Source of the DNA: Prorocentrum cordatum
Lineage: Eukaryota; Sar; Dinophyceae; Prorocentrales; Prorocentraceae
Reading direction: 5' to 3'
DNA length: 64,000 bases
Assembly (NCBI GenBank): GCA_963575745.1
Contig: CAUYUJ010017782.1
Coordinates: 192,001 to 256,000, forward strand
Position numbers and translations under genes: made by a program. Shown piece after piece: positions 29,042-45,350 of the stretch. The notes below the pieces were generated by a model. It made no database searches. It had not been told where the DNA came from and saw only the letters and a program-made list of their open reading frames with translations. The first letter of the stretch is position 1; each line of letters opens with the position of its first letter.

Positions 29042-30411
29042 CGATTTTATCTTCGTCTTGGCTTCGTCTTAATTCGAGCGTGCTGGTGCAACCCCCATTC
29101 GGTTTTGCTAATCGATGCGCATTTCGTCAGATCGGTGCCGTGCGCATGTGGGGCGTCCTTGGGAACCTTCACTGAGGGTCGTGTTGCCCAGGGGTCTTCC
29201 GTCAATCTTCGAATGAGCGTGGGAGGATCGATGATTGCCGGATCGCCGGTTTCTCGACTTCTCCTCACCCGATGTTGTCCTCGTCCTGGCCTCGTCTTAC
29301 CCGTCCGGGCCCCGCCTCCTGGGACCGACAAACTGGCACAACGTAAGGCTCGAGTGTGCCAGCACTCGGGTCTGCCGCCGCTGTCGGACGAGCGCGCCTT
29401 GGATTTTGACGCTCCGGCTCTCGTGGGATGTCTGCAGCGGGAGGTTGCGCCAAAGTTCAGACTGGGTCTCGTCATTTTCGTGATGGCCCCTGTCATGACA
29501 GGCCAACCCGAGTCCCCCGAACCCGAGGATTACATCTCCCCACGCAGAGAGTGGTCCGCGCGTGGCTTTGGGCCCCGGCGGCGTGCCAGGCCAGCCGCGG
29601 GAGCGCGGCAAAGCGGTGTGCGAGCGGCGCGCCCCGCGGCCTTGGGTGGAGGGAACGGCGCGGGAGAGCGCAGGGGCAGCGCGAGGAGGTCCAGAAGAGG
29701 ACGAGACACCCACAGTTACTGCTGCCCCTCCCTCGGTTTCCCCCTTTCGAGGGGGCCTCCTGGGAGGCCCTCGTCGCCACCGCTGGATTCGCCTCAAGAT
29801 TCGGGTCCGAGCGCACCCTGCTAGAGGTCTGGGGAGAAGGAAAAGCGGCGTCAGTACCTTTTGGTTGCCCCAGGGGTGGGCGACCTGCAGTACTGAAAAG
29901 ATCGGGGCGTCGGGAGTCAAGGTCCTCTCCCTCCTTCAGGCGCTAACGCAAAGACGTGCGTGTACAGGAGCGTTCGTGGGCTGCGAGGGAATGCGTTGCG
30001 GGAACGTTCGTAACTCGAGGTTTGCCTCGCAGACTGGGGGGGGGCCATATTTATGAGGTTGATAAACCTCCTACCCTGACACGTCGATTAGCGAATTGGC
30101 CGTTTTCGGTTCGCGAGAGGGCGTCGCGGCCGTCGTTTCTGCGGGTCCAGGTCCGTCGGTTTCGGTCCCAGGCCGTTTTCACTAAAGGATGGTTTGCTAA
30201 AGGGAGGTTCGTCCACCGCCGAACACTCGTGCGGGTGCTGGCCAGAACTTCGATCGATGGAAATCCGTTTGGGGATGATGTGGTCGGCGTGCTGAGGGAA
30301 AGCGCCGATGTCGGCCAGATTTGGGGCCCCAGAGGGCCTCCAAACCCTTGTGCTCCTTGTTTTTTGGTTCGGACATGCGGACAGCGCCGACGTCGAGAGT
30401 TGATCAGGAGG
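29042..30411. other. No supported gene; dispersed repeat at 29751-29832
   Basis: A 43-bp segment after MITE-3 (CCTCACCCGATTTTATCTTC onward) recurs diverged at 29261-29305. Bases 29751-29832 (CCTCCTGGGAGGCCCTCGTC to AGAGGTCTGG) match 36640-36720. A + frame through 29400-29530 has mild protein character (ALVGCLQREVAPKFRLGLVI) but no borders I would trust. Confidence 0.5.
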
Positions 30412-30582: not shown

Positions 30583-31095
30583 CTTCTTTAGTTGATTCCC
30601 GCGCATGTGTGCACGGCTGGTCGCGCACGTCTTTTGTGGCTTCTCCCCACGGCGGGGACGTTCGTGAAGGAATGTGTCCAGGAGGCTGCAGACCCCGGAG
30701 GATCCCTTCATTCGTGAGGGCGACGGTGATATATCCATGGCCGATCCGCGGTTGGAGCCCCACCGGCTTCCAAACCCTTGATTCCTTACCTAAGAGTTCC
30801 TTGTCCAATGCCCCCACCTTATTGCGAAGGCCTTACGGCCGGTGCCGCCGACCCTGAAGATGAGGACGTTGACCACGACGAGGTAGGACGAGCAGGGGGG
30901 AGGAGCCACATAAGGAGGAGAAGGGTGAGGAGGATGGGAAGGAGGAGGTGGAGGCAGAGGCAGGGGCCCCCACCGTATTCCCGCTCTCCAGGGAGGATTG
31001 CGATGTGCGCGGGTGCCGGGCAGGACTGCGGCCGATCCCCATCGCCTCCGGGATGCCAGAGCCAGGCCCCGGCCGAGGTGCGCCATCCTTTTGAC
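30583..31095. other. No supported gene
   Basis: GC-rich, with a GGA-rich stretch at 30890-30970. Both strands have short frames without domains. Confidence 0.45.
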
Positions 31096-31250
31096 TAAGT
31101 CGGGCCTGCCCCTCTACAGAAGGAGTAGTCAAAAATAGTCAAAATTAGTCTGCGGACAATTTGTTGACCATTTCTGACTATTTTGGAGCAGTCTTTGACT
31201 ATCTCTAATTTCTCGTCCATAATCCGCCTGTGGGGGGACATGCCCGACCG
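31096..31250. mobile_element. MITE-1 (introner-type family), copy a
   Basis: The left end TAAGTCGGGCCTGCCCCTCTACAG and right end CCGCCTGTGGGGGGACATGCCCGACC are inverted copies of each other. The 155-bp size and AT-rich TGACTATTTT-like core match copies b-e. No clear target duplication was seen. Confidence 0.8.
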
Positions 31251-31433
31251 AACCCTTCGATGCCAGGACCGTTTTTCTTTCTTCGGGGGCTGGGCTCGCC
31301 GATTCCAGCCAGATTCCAGGCCCCTGGATTACAAGCTCTCCCCTTCCCCGCCCACGACTCACTGACCGTCGCCGCCGTCAAGAGTAGATCATCGTGCGCG
31401 CGTGGATTTGCGCGCGCCTTCCCCCCCGCAGGT

Positions 31434-37558: not shown

Positions 37559-37714
37559 AGGCCGGTGCAATGACCTCTGGAGGAATCGTCAAAAAGAATG
37601 ACAAAAAATAGCCTGGGGGCGATGTTGGGGACAATTTTGCAGCATGTTTGGAAAACTGTTTGACAATGTTTAAGTTTCCTCCGAAATCCGTATGTAGGAG
37701 GTCATGCCCGACCT
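37559..37714. mobile_element. MITE-1 copy b, left end diverged
   Basis: The right end ATGTAGGAGGTCATGCCCGACC is typical. The left end (GGCCGGTGCAATGACCTCTGG) is recognisable but altered. The core has GGGGGCGATGTTGGGGACAATTT, as in copy e. Confidence 0.6.
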
Positions 37715-38200
37715 ACTGTTTGGGGTTCTCGGCAAGGGAAACTCAGCCCGCGGCGAAAAGACAGTCCCGGAGATGGGGGTGGGGATGGGGATGACGATCA
37801 GAAAGCCGTCCTCTTCCCCCCTCTCCGGGCAGCACGGCCTGCCCGGCACCAGCGTGGCGGCTCGCCGAGATTCTCCCGAATCCTCTGGAGTTGTTTCGCG
37901 ACCTTTTGGTGCCCTGGATCCTTTGGAGTCCTCTTTTGCATCCCTCTTTTCGCGAGCTCTTCTGGTGCCTGGCCCTCTCAGCGACCTCGTTGGATCCCTT
38001 CCTCGCGCAGAAATTCTCTGGCATCCTTTCTGAAATCCTCTGGACTCGCTTGCTCTCGTGGTCCTTGAGAGCTCCCTGGGCCCACGCGACGACAACAGCA
38101 CGGCGGCTGGGCCTGCAGGCGGCGAGCGCAGGAGAGGCAGGGCCAGGGGGCGGCGCTCTGCGGAAGCCCCCGCCTCTCGGGAGGCGACGGGCGCATGGCG
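37715..38200. other. No supported gene
   Basis: Repeats of CTCTTTTGCATCC/TTTCTGAAATCCTCTGG-like words at 37900-38060. No domain was seen. Confidence 0.4.
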
Positions 38201-38360
38201 TTAAGTCGGGCTTGTCCCTCTACAGGAGGAATATTCAAAGATAATAGAAAAATCGTATGGAGACGGTTTTGTTTACTAAGCTGAACATGTTTGCATATTG
38301 TTGGCTAGTCTTTTGATTTTTCATCAAAAATCCCCCTGTAGGGAGACATGCCCGACCTAA
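38201..38360. mobile_element. MITE-1 copy c
   Basis: A 160-bp element with ends TTAAGTCGGGCTTGTCCCTC and CTGTAGGGAGACATGCCCGAC plus CTAA. Flanks GCATGGCG and GCACGGCT may be a diverged 8-bp target duplication. Confidence 0.8.
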
Positions 38361-38824
38361 GCACGGCTGCAGAGGCAGACCTTCTCCACGAAGGCCCCCC
38401 ATGCCTTCTTTGCGTAACGCTTCACTCTCAAACTCATGGGAAGTGTTCGTTCCATGGAGCCAAGGCTTCGAGTTCCAGATTCTGAAACAATCGCGCACTG
38501 CGACATCTGAGTTTCAGCGCTCCGGCGCCCCCGCCGAGCTCTTGGAGGGCCGCCCCGCCCCCCCCCCCCCCGGGCGAACATCGGCGAGCGATCTGTCCAG
38601 CGCCCGCAGCTGCCACAGCAGCGGCCAGGCAACGCCCGGCGGCGAGGCACGAGCCGCGCGTCATCGGCTACAGAGCGGAGGTGGGCTCGGGCGATCGTGC
38701 GAGGCGGCAGAGAGTGGCTCTGGACTCGCTGCAGGCGGGGGTCGTGCGAGGCACCTCTCACTTACAGTGCAGGGTCCAGCCAGTGCTTAGCAACCAGAAA
38801 AGGACCCCCATGCCTGGCCTTGCC
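38361..38824. other. No firm gene call
   Basis: The minus strand (38560-38361) encodes a plausible peptide (LGSMERTLPMSLRVKRYAKK, then AWGAFVEKVCLC) running up to MITE-1 copy c, but no partner exon was found beyond the element. The + strand frame is Ser/Gly/Ala-rich. Confidence 0.35.
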
Positions 38825-38988
38825 TTAAGTCGGGCATGCCCCTCCTCCACAGGGGGAACTCACAAATTGTCAAAAAAATATTCAGGGGACGATTTCTCGA
38901 CCATTTCTTAAACTATGTTCAAGCATCTTTTTACCCTTCCACTTTTTCGCGACCAAAATCCGCCTGCAGGAGGGCATGCCCGACCTGA
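38825..38988. mobile_element. MITE-1 copy d
   Basis: A 164-bp element with ends TTAAGTCGGGCATGCCCCTC and CTGCAGGAGGGCATGCCCGACCTGA. The core has GGGGACGATTTCTCGACCA. About 38 bp before it (AGCAACCAGAAAAGGACCCC) is repeated immediately after it. Confidence 0.85.
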
Positions 38989-40567: not shown

Positions 40568-41115
40568 GACGTGTGATGGCTCGCATCTCAGCTCTAAAGT
40601 AGAAGTGTCTACAATGCACTTCGGATCCCTTACAGAATGCGTTGCTTGTGGAACTGAATGTTTATCCCTGTGCTTCATACGCTGTGTATTGCGTTGCCCC
40701 CTAATGCGGGCGATCCGATCGGGCAGTCTTTCAACATTGCAGCTCCGAGCAGTCGAATCCAGGAAGCCCCCAAAAAGAACACTGACATACAACAGGCATG
40801 GGCCCATCCGCGCAAAGTTCGATGACACCAGTGATGCTGACAGCTCGGCAGGCGCAGGCACAACATCGAACATCCACCCCGCGCGGTCAGGGCCAAGGAG
40901 CAAATCCTTTCAGGATACTTCGAGCCCTGAACACCAAATGCCCCTCCCCCTGTCCCCTCTTGCGAGGGGGGAGGAGGTTCCGTAGCCGTCCCGGCTCGAG
41001 CGCCGAGGTGCCCCTCGGGGCGGACCGCCTCGGCAGCTGTCGGGAGCGCCCGCCCGCCCTGCCTTGCCAGGACGTGCATGGGATTGGCCGTCTTGGCGTG
41101 GCGGGCGGCTCTCCA

Positions 41116-41300
41116 ATGGACGGCCGCTCCGCCCGCGGCGGCGCGCCGCCGCCGTTCGGCGCCGCCTCGCTGCAGCGGTTCGGGTCCTGCAGCGCCGCCG
41201 CGGCGGCCCAGGGTGGCGCCGGCGGCACGGCGCGCGGAGGGCCAGCGCAGGGCCTGCACGGCTTCCCGCCACCCGCGCACGCGGCGCCGCACGGCGGGCC

Positions 41301-41350
<50 letters not shown>

Positions 41351-41415
41351 CGCCGTTCCACCAGCAGCAGCACCAGCAGCACCACCAGTTGCAGCACCAG
41401 CAGCATCAGCAGAAT

Positions 41416-41468
<53 letters not shown>

Positions 41469-43922
41469 CGCCTGGCGCGTGGCCTACGCCGCGTACGACC
41501 TGGCAGGTCCCACGCAGGGCGAGGCACAGCGTCCGCCAGCGGGGCTCCCTACGCCCCAGCAACAGCCTCCCCCAGCGCCTCTGGCACAGCAGTCCCCCCC
41601 AGGGCCGCAGCCACCTCCGGCGCAGCACCCTGCGCCGCAGCAGCCGCCTGCAGCGAACGCGGAGTCTCTTTCCGGGGCGGACATATTGAAGGCAGAGGCG
41701 TCGGTGCTCCGGGGTCGATTGAAGCGTTTCGAGGAGGAGAACGCCCGCCTGCAGGCGGAGCTCGCCGCAGCCAGGGACACGGCTCCGGCGGGCGAGGCGG
41801 CCCGGCAGCGCAAGGCCGACCTCGACCGCGCGCAGAACGACCTTCAGTACGCCAGGCAGGATTTGCTGACGTCCGAGGAGGAGAACAAACGCTTGCGCAC
41901 CAGCCTCGAGGGCACGAAGGCAGACTTGGAGGCCCTGCGTTCCCGAGGCATCCCCCCAGCGGCGGCTGCGGCGCCTCGGGCGCAGCCGCCAGCTGCGCTG
42001 CCCGCCGCGCCGCCAGCCCAGGCAGCGCCGCCAGCCCAGGCAGCCCCGCCAGCTCCGGCCGCGCCGCCGGCAGCTCCCCCCGCTGCCCAGGCCGCGGGCC
42101 CTCGCCCCGAGAAGCTGGCTGGCACGGCCCCAGGCCGCGCCAGCCCCCACGGGCAGTGGCGCCGGGAAGCGCTGGTGCGGGAGGCGGCCCAGTGGGAGGC
42201 GTCGGCGCAGGCGGCGCCTGGCAGCCAGTGCGGGCAGGGCACCTGGTTCGCGCTGTGGGACGCCGTCAGCCGCCTGCCTTGCGACGCCGTCGGTCGCGGG
42301 CCTCCTCCCGGAACAAATCCTTCGGGACTGCCCGCAACAGTGGACGAGGGGGAGGAGGTTGCAGTGGCGGCCGCGGCACAGCTCGGCTGTGCGATTGATG
42401 CCCGCCGCTGGAGGACGGTCCGCTGCGGCGCCCGCTTCGTGCAGGTGTGGGCGGGCCTCTTCCCGGAGTGCATCAAGAGCCTCGCGGCCAAAGCCACGGG
42501 CGAGCAGACAGCTCGGCCTGGCGACGGCGCCTGCCGGCGGCCGCCGCGATTCCCTCTCTTTGGCGAGCTGTGCCGCGCCCTGCACGAGGTCGTGCTTGCT
42601 GCAGAGCCCTCGGGCGCAGAGGCTGACGTGGACGCTGGCGCGCAGCGGCAGGCGTGCGCAGCGCAGCTCGTTGCCACGCTCACAGAGGTTGCCGGGAGGC
42701 TCGGCCAGGGCGAGCTGGGGCTCTTGGCGGACGTCCTGCGCCGGCCGTCCCTCTGTGCCTTGCTGGCAGCGCCTCCCGCCGAGAGGTCCCTGCACCTTCC
42801 TTGCATGCAGCTGCTGCAGACGCTCTTCCAGAGGGGAGAGCTGTTCGAGCTTGCCCACCAGGCCGACTCGGAGGAGAATCCGCTCCTGGCTGCGGCGAAC
42901 CTGCTGCTTCTGCCGGCCATCCGCAGCGGGGCCACCCTGGACCGCAGGAGGGACGCCGACGCGGACGCCGCAGCAGACCTGGCCGACGCCTCAGCCACGG
43001 CGGCCGAGGAGGAGCGCGACGGCCGTGAGCACCAACGCTGCAGGGTGGCGGCGCTGGAGCTCTTCTGCTCCTGCCTGGCCGCGGCGCCGAGCCCAGACAT
43101 CGTCCTCCAGCTGCGGGGCACTCCCGCCGCCGGGGGCCAGGCGATAGACACCGTGCTGCAGCTGGTCGTGCTCCTCTGCCACCACGAGCTGCTGTGCCTG
43201 GGCATCCACGGCTCGACCGAGGCGCCCTGGCTCGACCACGTGCTCCGAGAGTGCGCGCAGCGGCGCCAGCGCTCGGTGCAGCTCTCGCTCGCGCTGCTGG
43301 CGAGCTACGTTTGGCACGCGGCGCCCTGGTCTCCGGACACAGAGGGTGCAGCTCACGCCGCCGCTTGCGCCGAGGCTTGTGTCAAGTCGGGCATGTCCCT
43401 CTACAGGAGGAATAGTCAAAACCATAGTCTGGGGACGATTTTCCCACCACTTTGAATGATGTTTGATTATGTTTTGGATATGTTTGATTTTTCTTGTAAG
43501 ATCCGCCTATAGGAGGACATGCCCGACCCAAGGCTTGTGCGTCACTGGGCAGGGTGCGCCCCCTGCTGGGGTCCATCATCGACATGGTGGCCCGCCGCGC
43601 GCACCAGCAAGGGGCGCCGTACCGCGACCTCCTCGGAAGCGTGTCCGCCCTGCGCAGCCTGGTGGCGCACGCCGACGGCGACGCTGCGGCCACTCGCGGG
43701 GACGCCTCAGGCGCCGCCCGCGGCTCCGGCGCCCAGGTGCAGAGCGCAGCGCCCGCCGCTCCCATGTGGCGGCGGGCAGAGGGGGGGGCAGGGCGAGCGG
43801 GGCAGCCTGCTGAGGATGCCAGGGCGCCTCGCAGAGCAGAGGCAGCGATAGAAGGGGGGGATAGCCTGGGGGGGGGGTGCATCGAGCCCATTTTCGCCCA
43901 TGGATCTCCGATTGGGGCCTGA
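41116..43922 (+). CDS. ATRIP-like (ATR-interacting) protein, one introner intron
   Basis: Exon 1 41116-43374, intron 43375-43532, exon 2 43533-43922 with stop: 882 residues if the ATG at 41116 is used. The frame is open further upstream to 40798, so an earlier start or exon is possible. Residues 1-60 are Gly/Ala-rich; 63-117 hold two polyglutamine tracts; 185-275 form a coiled coil (KAEASVLRGRLKRFEEENAR; KADLDRAQNDLQYARQDLL); 280-340 are Ala/Pro-rich; 355 on is a helical, HEAT-like region (ELGLLADVLRRPSLCALLA; SVQLSLALLASYVWHAAPW). ATRIP proteins pair an N-terminal coiled coil containing an ILRxxL...LQF-type core with a C-terminal helical repeat that binds ATR; both features fit, but the call is by resemblance. 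Function would be recruiting ATR kinase to RPA-coated DNA. The last about 20 residues (after about 43860) look non-coding, so a further donor may precede them. Confidence 0.5.
41302..41466 (+). repeat. Coding CAG tracts (polyglutamine)
   Basis: (CAG)16 at 41302-41350 and about sixteen CAG at 41417-41466, separated by His/Gln codons, inside the ATRIP-like reading frame. Confidence 0.9.
43383..43530. mobile_element. MITE-1 copy e acting as an intron (introner)
   Basis: The ends CAAGTCGGGCATGTCCCTC and TATAGGAGGACATGCCCGACC are inverted copies. The 9-bp target duplication AGGCTTGTG flanks it (43373-43381 and 43531-43539). Reading the first duplication as GAG|GCTTGTG (GC donor, 43375) and the second as AAG|GCTTGTG (acceptor, 43531-43532) removes element plus one duplication exactly and keeps the frame (AEACASLGRVRPLLGSII). 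Read through, the frame would stop after about 27 residues. Confidence 0.85.
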
Positions 43923-45350
43923 CAGCCCACCCAGGCCGGGAGCGTGCGGTTCCGCTATCGAGGGTCTGTCGCCGGTCTGTCGGCGATGTATCGCCGATGC
44001 CAGGTCGATGTTTCCCCCCCCCTGCGCCAGTCCCCCTTCATCAGAAGCGGCAGGCCCTTCAAAGCCTCGCCCCACATATCCCGAGAGGCGGGGGGCCCTG
44101 CTTCAAATGCTGCCCTCCCACGCCCAGGCTTCAGGCCTCCTGATTTCTCGATTGCTCCAGAGCTCCCGATTCCAACAGTCGCGCACGCGGACCCCACACC
44201 GCAGGTAGTTTTTGGTAGTCCTGGGGCCCTGAGCCTCCGATGGCCCCCACTCGAAAAAGCCAGCCGCCCTGGCTTGTTCTGGAAACCCGGATTGGGAAAC
44301 CTGGATTCCGCATTATGGGTAGTCTTGCTGATCTTGGAGCCCGAAGAGAGAAGCCCGAAATGAGTTTCCGAAGGCTCACACTCGATATCACCCCAGCAGG
44401 GCACCCCAGTAGCAACAAAGGTGAAGATGCTGGTCGAGAAGTAGGAGGTCGGTTACAGGAGACATGGACATGCATCTTGGGAAGTCTCAGGCGAAACGGC
44501 TGCCCGACGGGGCGGTCTAGGTCTTCAAGACCCTTTCTATGGAACTCTTCTGGGGTCCGCTTCTGCCTCTGCCAGAACCATCTAGCAGAACCTTTTTGTT
44601 TTTTACCGAAAGAGTGGTCCTAGAGGTCTTGCGTGGGAGGTCTTGCATGGGCTCTTGTGCCGGGCTCTGGGCGTCGATTCGTGTTCTCTTGCCTCGTTCT
44701 CCTGCACGCGTCGTCTTGGGCGCGTCTAGGGCGCGACCACTCTCCCCTCGACCATTGCTTCTGTCAAGACTCAGGCGATCGCAAACATGGATGAAGTGGG
44801 CCCGGATTAGCGACTGGTCCCATTTCCATTGGAAATCGCGGATTTCCGCCGCCGACCGAAGCTGCGCCGGCCGCACTTTGGGGAGGGCACCTCCTCCGAT
44901 CCATGGGTTTGGCGACCGCGCTCCAAATCAATGGATCGCTAATTCGTGTTTGCACGCCCCCGAAAGAGCAGTACAGTGCCGTTTTTTTATACATGCTCCG
45001 CGTGCGGATCATGTACTAAAAATGCAGGGATTTGGGATTACAAACAACGAGGAGTTCATGCAAAAATTGATTCATAATTTGATCATGTATTAAAAACCAT
45101 ATATTAAAAAAAAATCCGATGTATTAAAAACTGCCCTGTAGGGAGAAAGCCAGCCATCCTGATGCCTGTCATCGCCCTGCCCTCCTCGTGCGCGCCTCCA
45201 GCCCATGGTGGTGGACCAGTAGGGTTTCCCGGCGGCGGAGGGCCTGGGCGGCGGAGGGGGGCGCGGCGCGCGGTCCCGCGGCTCGTCCGCCCCCGCGTCC
45301 CGGAGAAAAAGCCACGCGGCGAGGCCGCGTGCCCCTGCAGCGCGCCGCGC
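43923..45350. other. No supported gene
   Basis: Contains GATGTATCGCCGATGCC (43985), a word of the MITE-4 family, and an AT-rich segment (45000-45130) with ATGTATTAAAAA repeated three times. The segment ends CCCTGTAGGGAGAAAGCCAGCC, which resembles a MITE-1 right end. No left partner was found. Confidence 0.45.

Follow-up and report, generated by a model that had tools for sequence, protein, structure and literature searches.

Comparison with described introners

Introns made by transposons, with splice sites derived from the target site duplication (TSD), have already been published, and the process considered here is thus not new. In the parts of the literature cited here, introner families are reported whose two splice sites derive from the TSD, either wholly or in part (PMC9860276). 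The original prediction stated that introners are known from dinoflagellates, and this is borne out by published work: the introns of Prorocentrum cordatum itself are enriched in introner elements (Dougan et al. 2023, PMC10666404), its donors being GC in 51.4% and its acceptors AGG in 79.7% of cases (PMC10666404), and a review credits Polarella glacialis with 12,253 introns from recent introner insertion (PMC11453091). Hairpin-forming introners with repeats at their borders were described from Amoebophrya (Farhat et al. 2021, PMC7789003).

The 64-kb stretch of P. cordatum DNA analysed here (the window) contains a MITE copy, designated e, which is probably a spliced introner. As far as the cited parts of the papers go, the closest described systems compare with it as follows: 1) Introner family 1 of Symbiodinium microadriaticum (Gozashti et al. 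2022, PMC9860276, Fig. 2B) is likewise a MITE-like dinoflagellate element with terminal inverted repeats (TIRs), a TSD and a donor taken from the TSD, but its TSD is of 4 bp and its 3' splice site is carried by the element, whereas copy e has an 8-bp TSD and an acceptor that is half element and half TSD. 2) Family 2 of Florenciella sp. (PMC9860276, Fig. 2E) also takes its splice sites largely from the insertion site; its element carries neither site, while copy e supplies the A of the acceptor. 3) The introner elements of P. cordatum (PMC10666404) come from the same species and have inverted repeats near both intron ends, but were defined by inverted repeats of 8–20 nt and direct repeats of 3–5 nt near those ends. 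4) Those of Amoebophrya (PMC7789003) have inverted repeats inside the intron ends and direct repeats over the exon borders, with a hairpin proposed to join the exon ends; many of their splice sites are non-canonical, their repeats are of 3–5 nt and the mechanism was left open, in contrast to the GC-AG sites and 8-bp duplication of copy e. The parts of the introner literature examined contain no description of this MITE family, of its 8-bp GGCTAGGG target or of the split acceptor.

The element and its target duplication

The features of the locus, and the other copies of the family in the window, are as follows.

40786–43374, + strand: open frame of the ATRIP-like gene upstream of the intron (open frame and homologs; 40786 marks where the frame opens)
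43374–43381, + strand: target duplication copy 1, GGCTTGTG, containing the GC donor at 43375–43376 (8-column flank match, 80 family copies)
43375–43532, + strand: putative GC-AG intron, 158 nt, phase 0 (frame restored; 30 of 30 homologs gapless; splice-pair enumeration)
43382–43531, + strand: MITE copy e, 150 bp, whose terminal A43531 supplies the A of the AG acceptor (family alignment)
43386–43411, + strand: left inverted-repeat arm (repeat search; 26 nt, 85% complementary)
43502–43527, + strand: right inverted-repeat arm (repeat search), pairing with the left arm in the predicted RNA fold
43532–43539, + strand: target duplication copy 2, GGCTTGTG; the G at its start completes the AG acceptor (80-copy flank alignment)
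43533–43736, + strand: downstream exon, conserved in homologs
43737–45201, + strand: probable next intron, GT-AG (join by reading); as far as examined, it does not belong to this MITE family
45202–45222, + strand: probably the final coding exon, encoding PMVVDQ and a stop; the C termini of several homologs read PMVVD or similar
About 31094–31252, 37565–37716, 38200–38360 and 38824–38988: other copies in the window (family comparison)

Copy e was originally predicted to lie between two copies of a nine-base repeat. A repeat search found this direct repeat, AGGCTTGTG, at 43373–43381 and 43531–43539 (spacing 158), with the 150-bp MITE and its TIRs between the two copies. The nine bases had been taken for the target duplication, a length that was rejected on alignment of 80 genomic copies, in whose flanks exactly 8 columns agree (0.69–0.84, vs 0.17–0.38 outside). 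These 80 copies, from genomic loci and the window, were chosen for their closest similarity to two of the window copies and for having both ends recognisable, and are not a random sample. Among them, at least 6 of the 8 duplication bases match in 56 copies and all 8 in 27, the last base of the element is A in 72, and the first base is T in 71. Since the 8 matching columns and the terminal A recur across the family, the duplication of copy e is taken to be GGCTTGTG and the element to span 43382–43531; the ninth base (A) of AGGCTTGTG is the terminal base of the element on the right side and ordinary flank on the left. The claim that both splice sites lie inside the target duplication consequently stands for the donor, which is wholly within copy 1, but not for the acceptor, which is split between A43531 of the element and G43532 of duplication copy 2.

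Members of the family measure about 150–165 bp and have a TIR stem and an 8-bp duplication of constant length, as MITEs do, and by its sequence the locus is a MITE insertion with a duplicated target. Copy e differs by 17.3% from the majority sequence of the family (rank 49 of 80; median 16%), so that the insertion looks old.

Host gene and probable splicing

The assignment of the host gene as ATRIP-like is supported: as in ATRIP, Rad26 and Ddc2, an N-terminal coiled coil is followed by a helical-repeat domain of the ATRIP fold, which agrees with the original prediction. Pfam gave no match above the cut-off for the gene product, and for the homologs it returned only coiled-coil families with weak scores, most commonly Rab11-FIP3 (18 of 26, best E 6.4e-5). 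A probable further intron, with GT at 43737 and AG at 45200–45201, would connect the downstream exon with a last exon of 7 codons that encodes PMVVDQ and a stop.

When the element is retained, the + frame ends at a TGA (43453–43455), and when 43375–43532 is excised, the frame that opens at 40786 carries on into the next exon; both had been predicted. The excised length of 158 nt, which is not a multiple of 3, equals exactly the 150-bp element plus one 8-bp copy of the duplication, giving the borders expected of an introner. In a search that scored the 7991 candidates with the most words in common, 25 proteins matched the intron-removed product at E 2.3e-51 or better, and 5 further, shorter proteins matched the junction region. 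All 30 are gapless across the junction over 31 columns of the protein alignment, although, since some are 85–93% identical to one another, they amount to fewer than 30 independent witnesses. The best homologs are 42–61% identical to the gene product and none is from P. cordatum itself; no P. cordatum transcript was present among the 30 protein matches. Five are recorded under MMETSP, one is a EukProt entry bearing a Trinity name and one is from Polarella glacialis, the rest being JGI and 'lgn' records. We take the MMETSP and EukProt Trinity entries to be of transcriptome origin. On the evidence of these homologous proteins, we infer that the element is spliced in vivo at 43375/43532, and the same comparison indicates that insertion and splicing would have left the coding sequence unchanged, as in introners.

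The stop met on read-through would also fit an element that is not spliced and has broken the gene, leaving a pseudogene or a truncated protein. We regard this as unlikely, since the exon that follows the element keeps an open frame and matches the homologs no less closely than the preceding one (mean identity over 45 residues of 0.585 and 0.507, respectively); such conservation behind an insertion that looks old would hardly be expected of a broken gene.

Splicing at other sites was addressed by enumerating frame-preserving donor/acceptor pairs around the element. There are 24 such pairs, 2 of which match the homologs in length, and 43375/43532 is the only one with both this length and the conserved GR. 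Two pairs with GT donors were rejected: GT 43381/AG 43532 adds two residues that occur at the junction in none of the 30 homologs, and GT 43395/AG 43552 gives a product of the same length in which ASLGR becomes VKSGM, losing the GR kept by all 30. The arrangement AG|GC...AG|G, moreover, combines the commonest donor and acceptor of P. cordatum in the cited part of PMC10666404. Use of such alternative sites, although they keep the frame, is therefore quite improbable. That the MITE landed in an older intron can be dismissed almost entirely, since 150 + 8 = 158 nt leaves no bases of such an intron, even though long introns (4709 bp on average) with abundant inverted-repeat elements are reported for P. 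cordatum (PMC10666404).

It is thus very probable that copy e is a non-autonomous MITE that inserted into a coding exon of the ATRIP-like gene, with an 8-bp duplication and splice sites at its edges, and that it is excised by the spliceosome. The proposed sequence of events is that i) a non-autonomous DNA transposon with TIRs would have entered the exon and duplicated the 8 bp GGCTTGTG, ii) bases 2 and 3 of the left duplication copy would have become the GC donor, iii) the final A of the element, with the G that opens the right copy, would have formed the AG acceptor, and iv) the spliceosome would excise the element together with one duplication copy (158 nt). As element and one duplication copy are removed, the mRNA would return to its pre-insertion sequence at AG|GC; the ancestral gene appears, from the sequence comparison, to have had no intron at this position. 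The predicted fold of the intron RNA contains the TIR stem (-52.4 kcal/mol, z -3.57), and the stem region was aligned for 8 family copies. Pairing of the inverted repeats may draw the two splice sites together, and the modelled hairpin may in this way aid splicing.

The MITE family in the genome

The genome searched comprised 4,128,499,153 bases in 21,875 contigs. Scoring of the best 40 of 3612 candidates for copy e, and of the best 40 of 3321 found with another copy from the window, together with a pattern consisting of AGGC..G.. plus the TIR start, which had 361 matches in the whole genome against 0 for its reversed control, indicates that the family has many genomic copies, as introners do. 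Five related copies, including a partial one, lie in the window itself. Three variations among the copies were observed. 1) The first base is G in 8 of the 80 copies, and L015, L016, L027, L039 and L045 start with GTAAGTC rather than TTAAGTC, placing a perfect-looking GTAAGT donor at the element edge. 2) In L026 (element at 2001, minus orientation) the flanks form an 11-bp direct repeat, GCCGTGTTTCG, vs the usual 8 bp. 3) L049/L050 (contig C15589) and L034/L035 have identical sequence beside the element, reflecting segmental duplications or duplicate assembly.

Among the 80 copies with a coding score, e is the only one clearly above 0 on both sides with a duplication matching in at least 6 of 8 bases (0.5 and 0.5), the next being L043 with 0.0 and 0.16; the score was trained on the ATRIP-like gene itself, which biases it towards e. 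When local background is used, the values for e are 0.25 and -0.01, which is weak support. None of the other window copies had a score above 0 among the 25 best rows. Of the AGGC-type matches, the first 39 of the 361 places in contig order were taken, giving 38 usable rows; the duplication matches in at least 6 of 8 bases in 21 of these, and in the other 17 the right end is lost or misplaced. One further likely exonic copy was found among the 38 (L067/L087, contig C48, element from 339946). It has a perfect GGCTGGAG duplication, its removal gives an AG|G join in phase 2, and the open frame then continues through LRLELKQVFAELKG, with coding-like sequence on both sides; a homolog search with its C-terminal piece found none. 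Upstream of this copy adjoins a different repeat (L087:1285–1442), 90.5% identical over 158 bp to window positions 30066–30223 and possibly lying in another transposon-made intron. The long open frames in L022, L035, L051, L061, L063 and L102 were judged by eye to be of low complexity or to contain nothing recognisable.

Most copies lie outside exons; with one clearly exonic copy in 80 and one further likely copy in 38, frequent intron formation by this family is not established. The family appears rather to be a general MITE that would become an intron when it lands at a GGC site within an exon, and we infer that only splice-ready exonic insertions survive.

Target preference and a possible supply of splice sites

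For statistics on the duplications, 3 duplicated places were removed (80 to 77) and the 54 copies with at least 6 of 8 matching bases were used. The consensus is G G C T A G G G. Positions 3–6 are the best defined (C 0.76, T 0.63, A 0.66 and G 0.69) and G stands at 0.35–0.45 in the others, so that the preferred target of the family is GGCTAGGG. GGC starts 15 of 108 duplications when both orientations are read, compared with 2.9% in the background (binomial p 6e-7, with the two strands of a site counted as independent); by strand, these are 13 of 54 on the + strand of the element and 2 of 54 on the opposite strand. Starts with GGT (1 of 108) and GGA (0 of 108) are not enriched.

Insertion at GGC yields AG|GC-type sites without mutation: a duplication that begins with GGC would provide the GC donor, and the terminal A of the element would complete the AG acceptor. 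Since an A terminates both ends of the element, this completion would be available in both orientations. It is possible, though doubtful, that a transposase preference for GGCTAGGG makes insertions splice-ready and thereby helps explain the excess of GC over GT donors in this and other dinoflagellates.

The locus offers an unusually legible case of intron birth, in which the element, the duplication, the donor, the acceptor and the uninterrupted homologous proteins can all be read at one place, and it corrects the assignment of the acceptor to half element and half duplication. It also makes countable the question of how often the target preference of a transposon supplies GGC, and whether dinoflagellate GC donors are fed by it. 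If the suggestion is true, the choice of targets by this family and its relatives would help account for the GC-donor excess of dinoflagellate introns.
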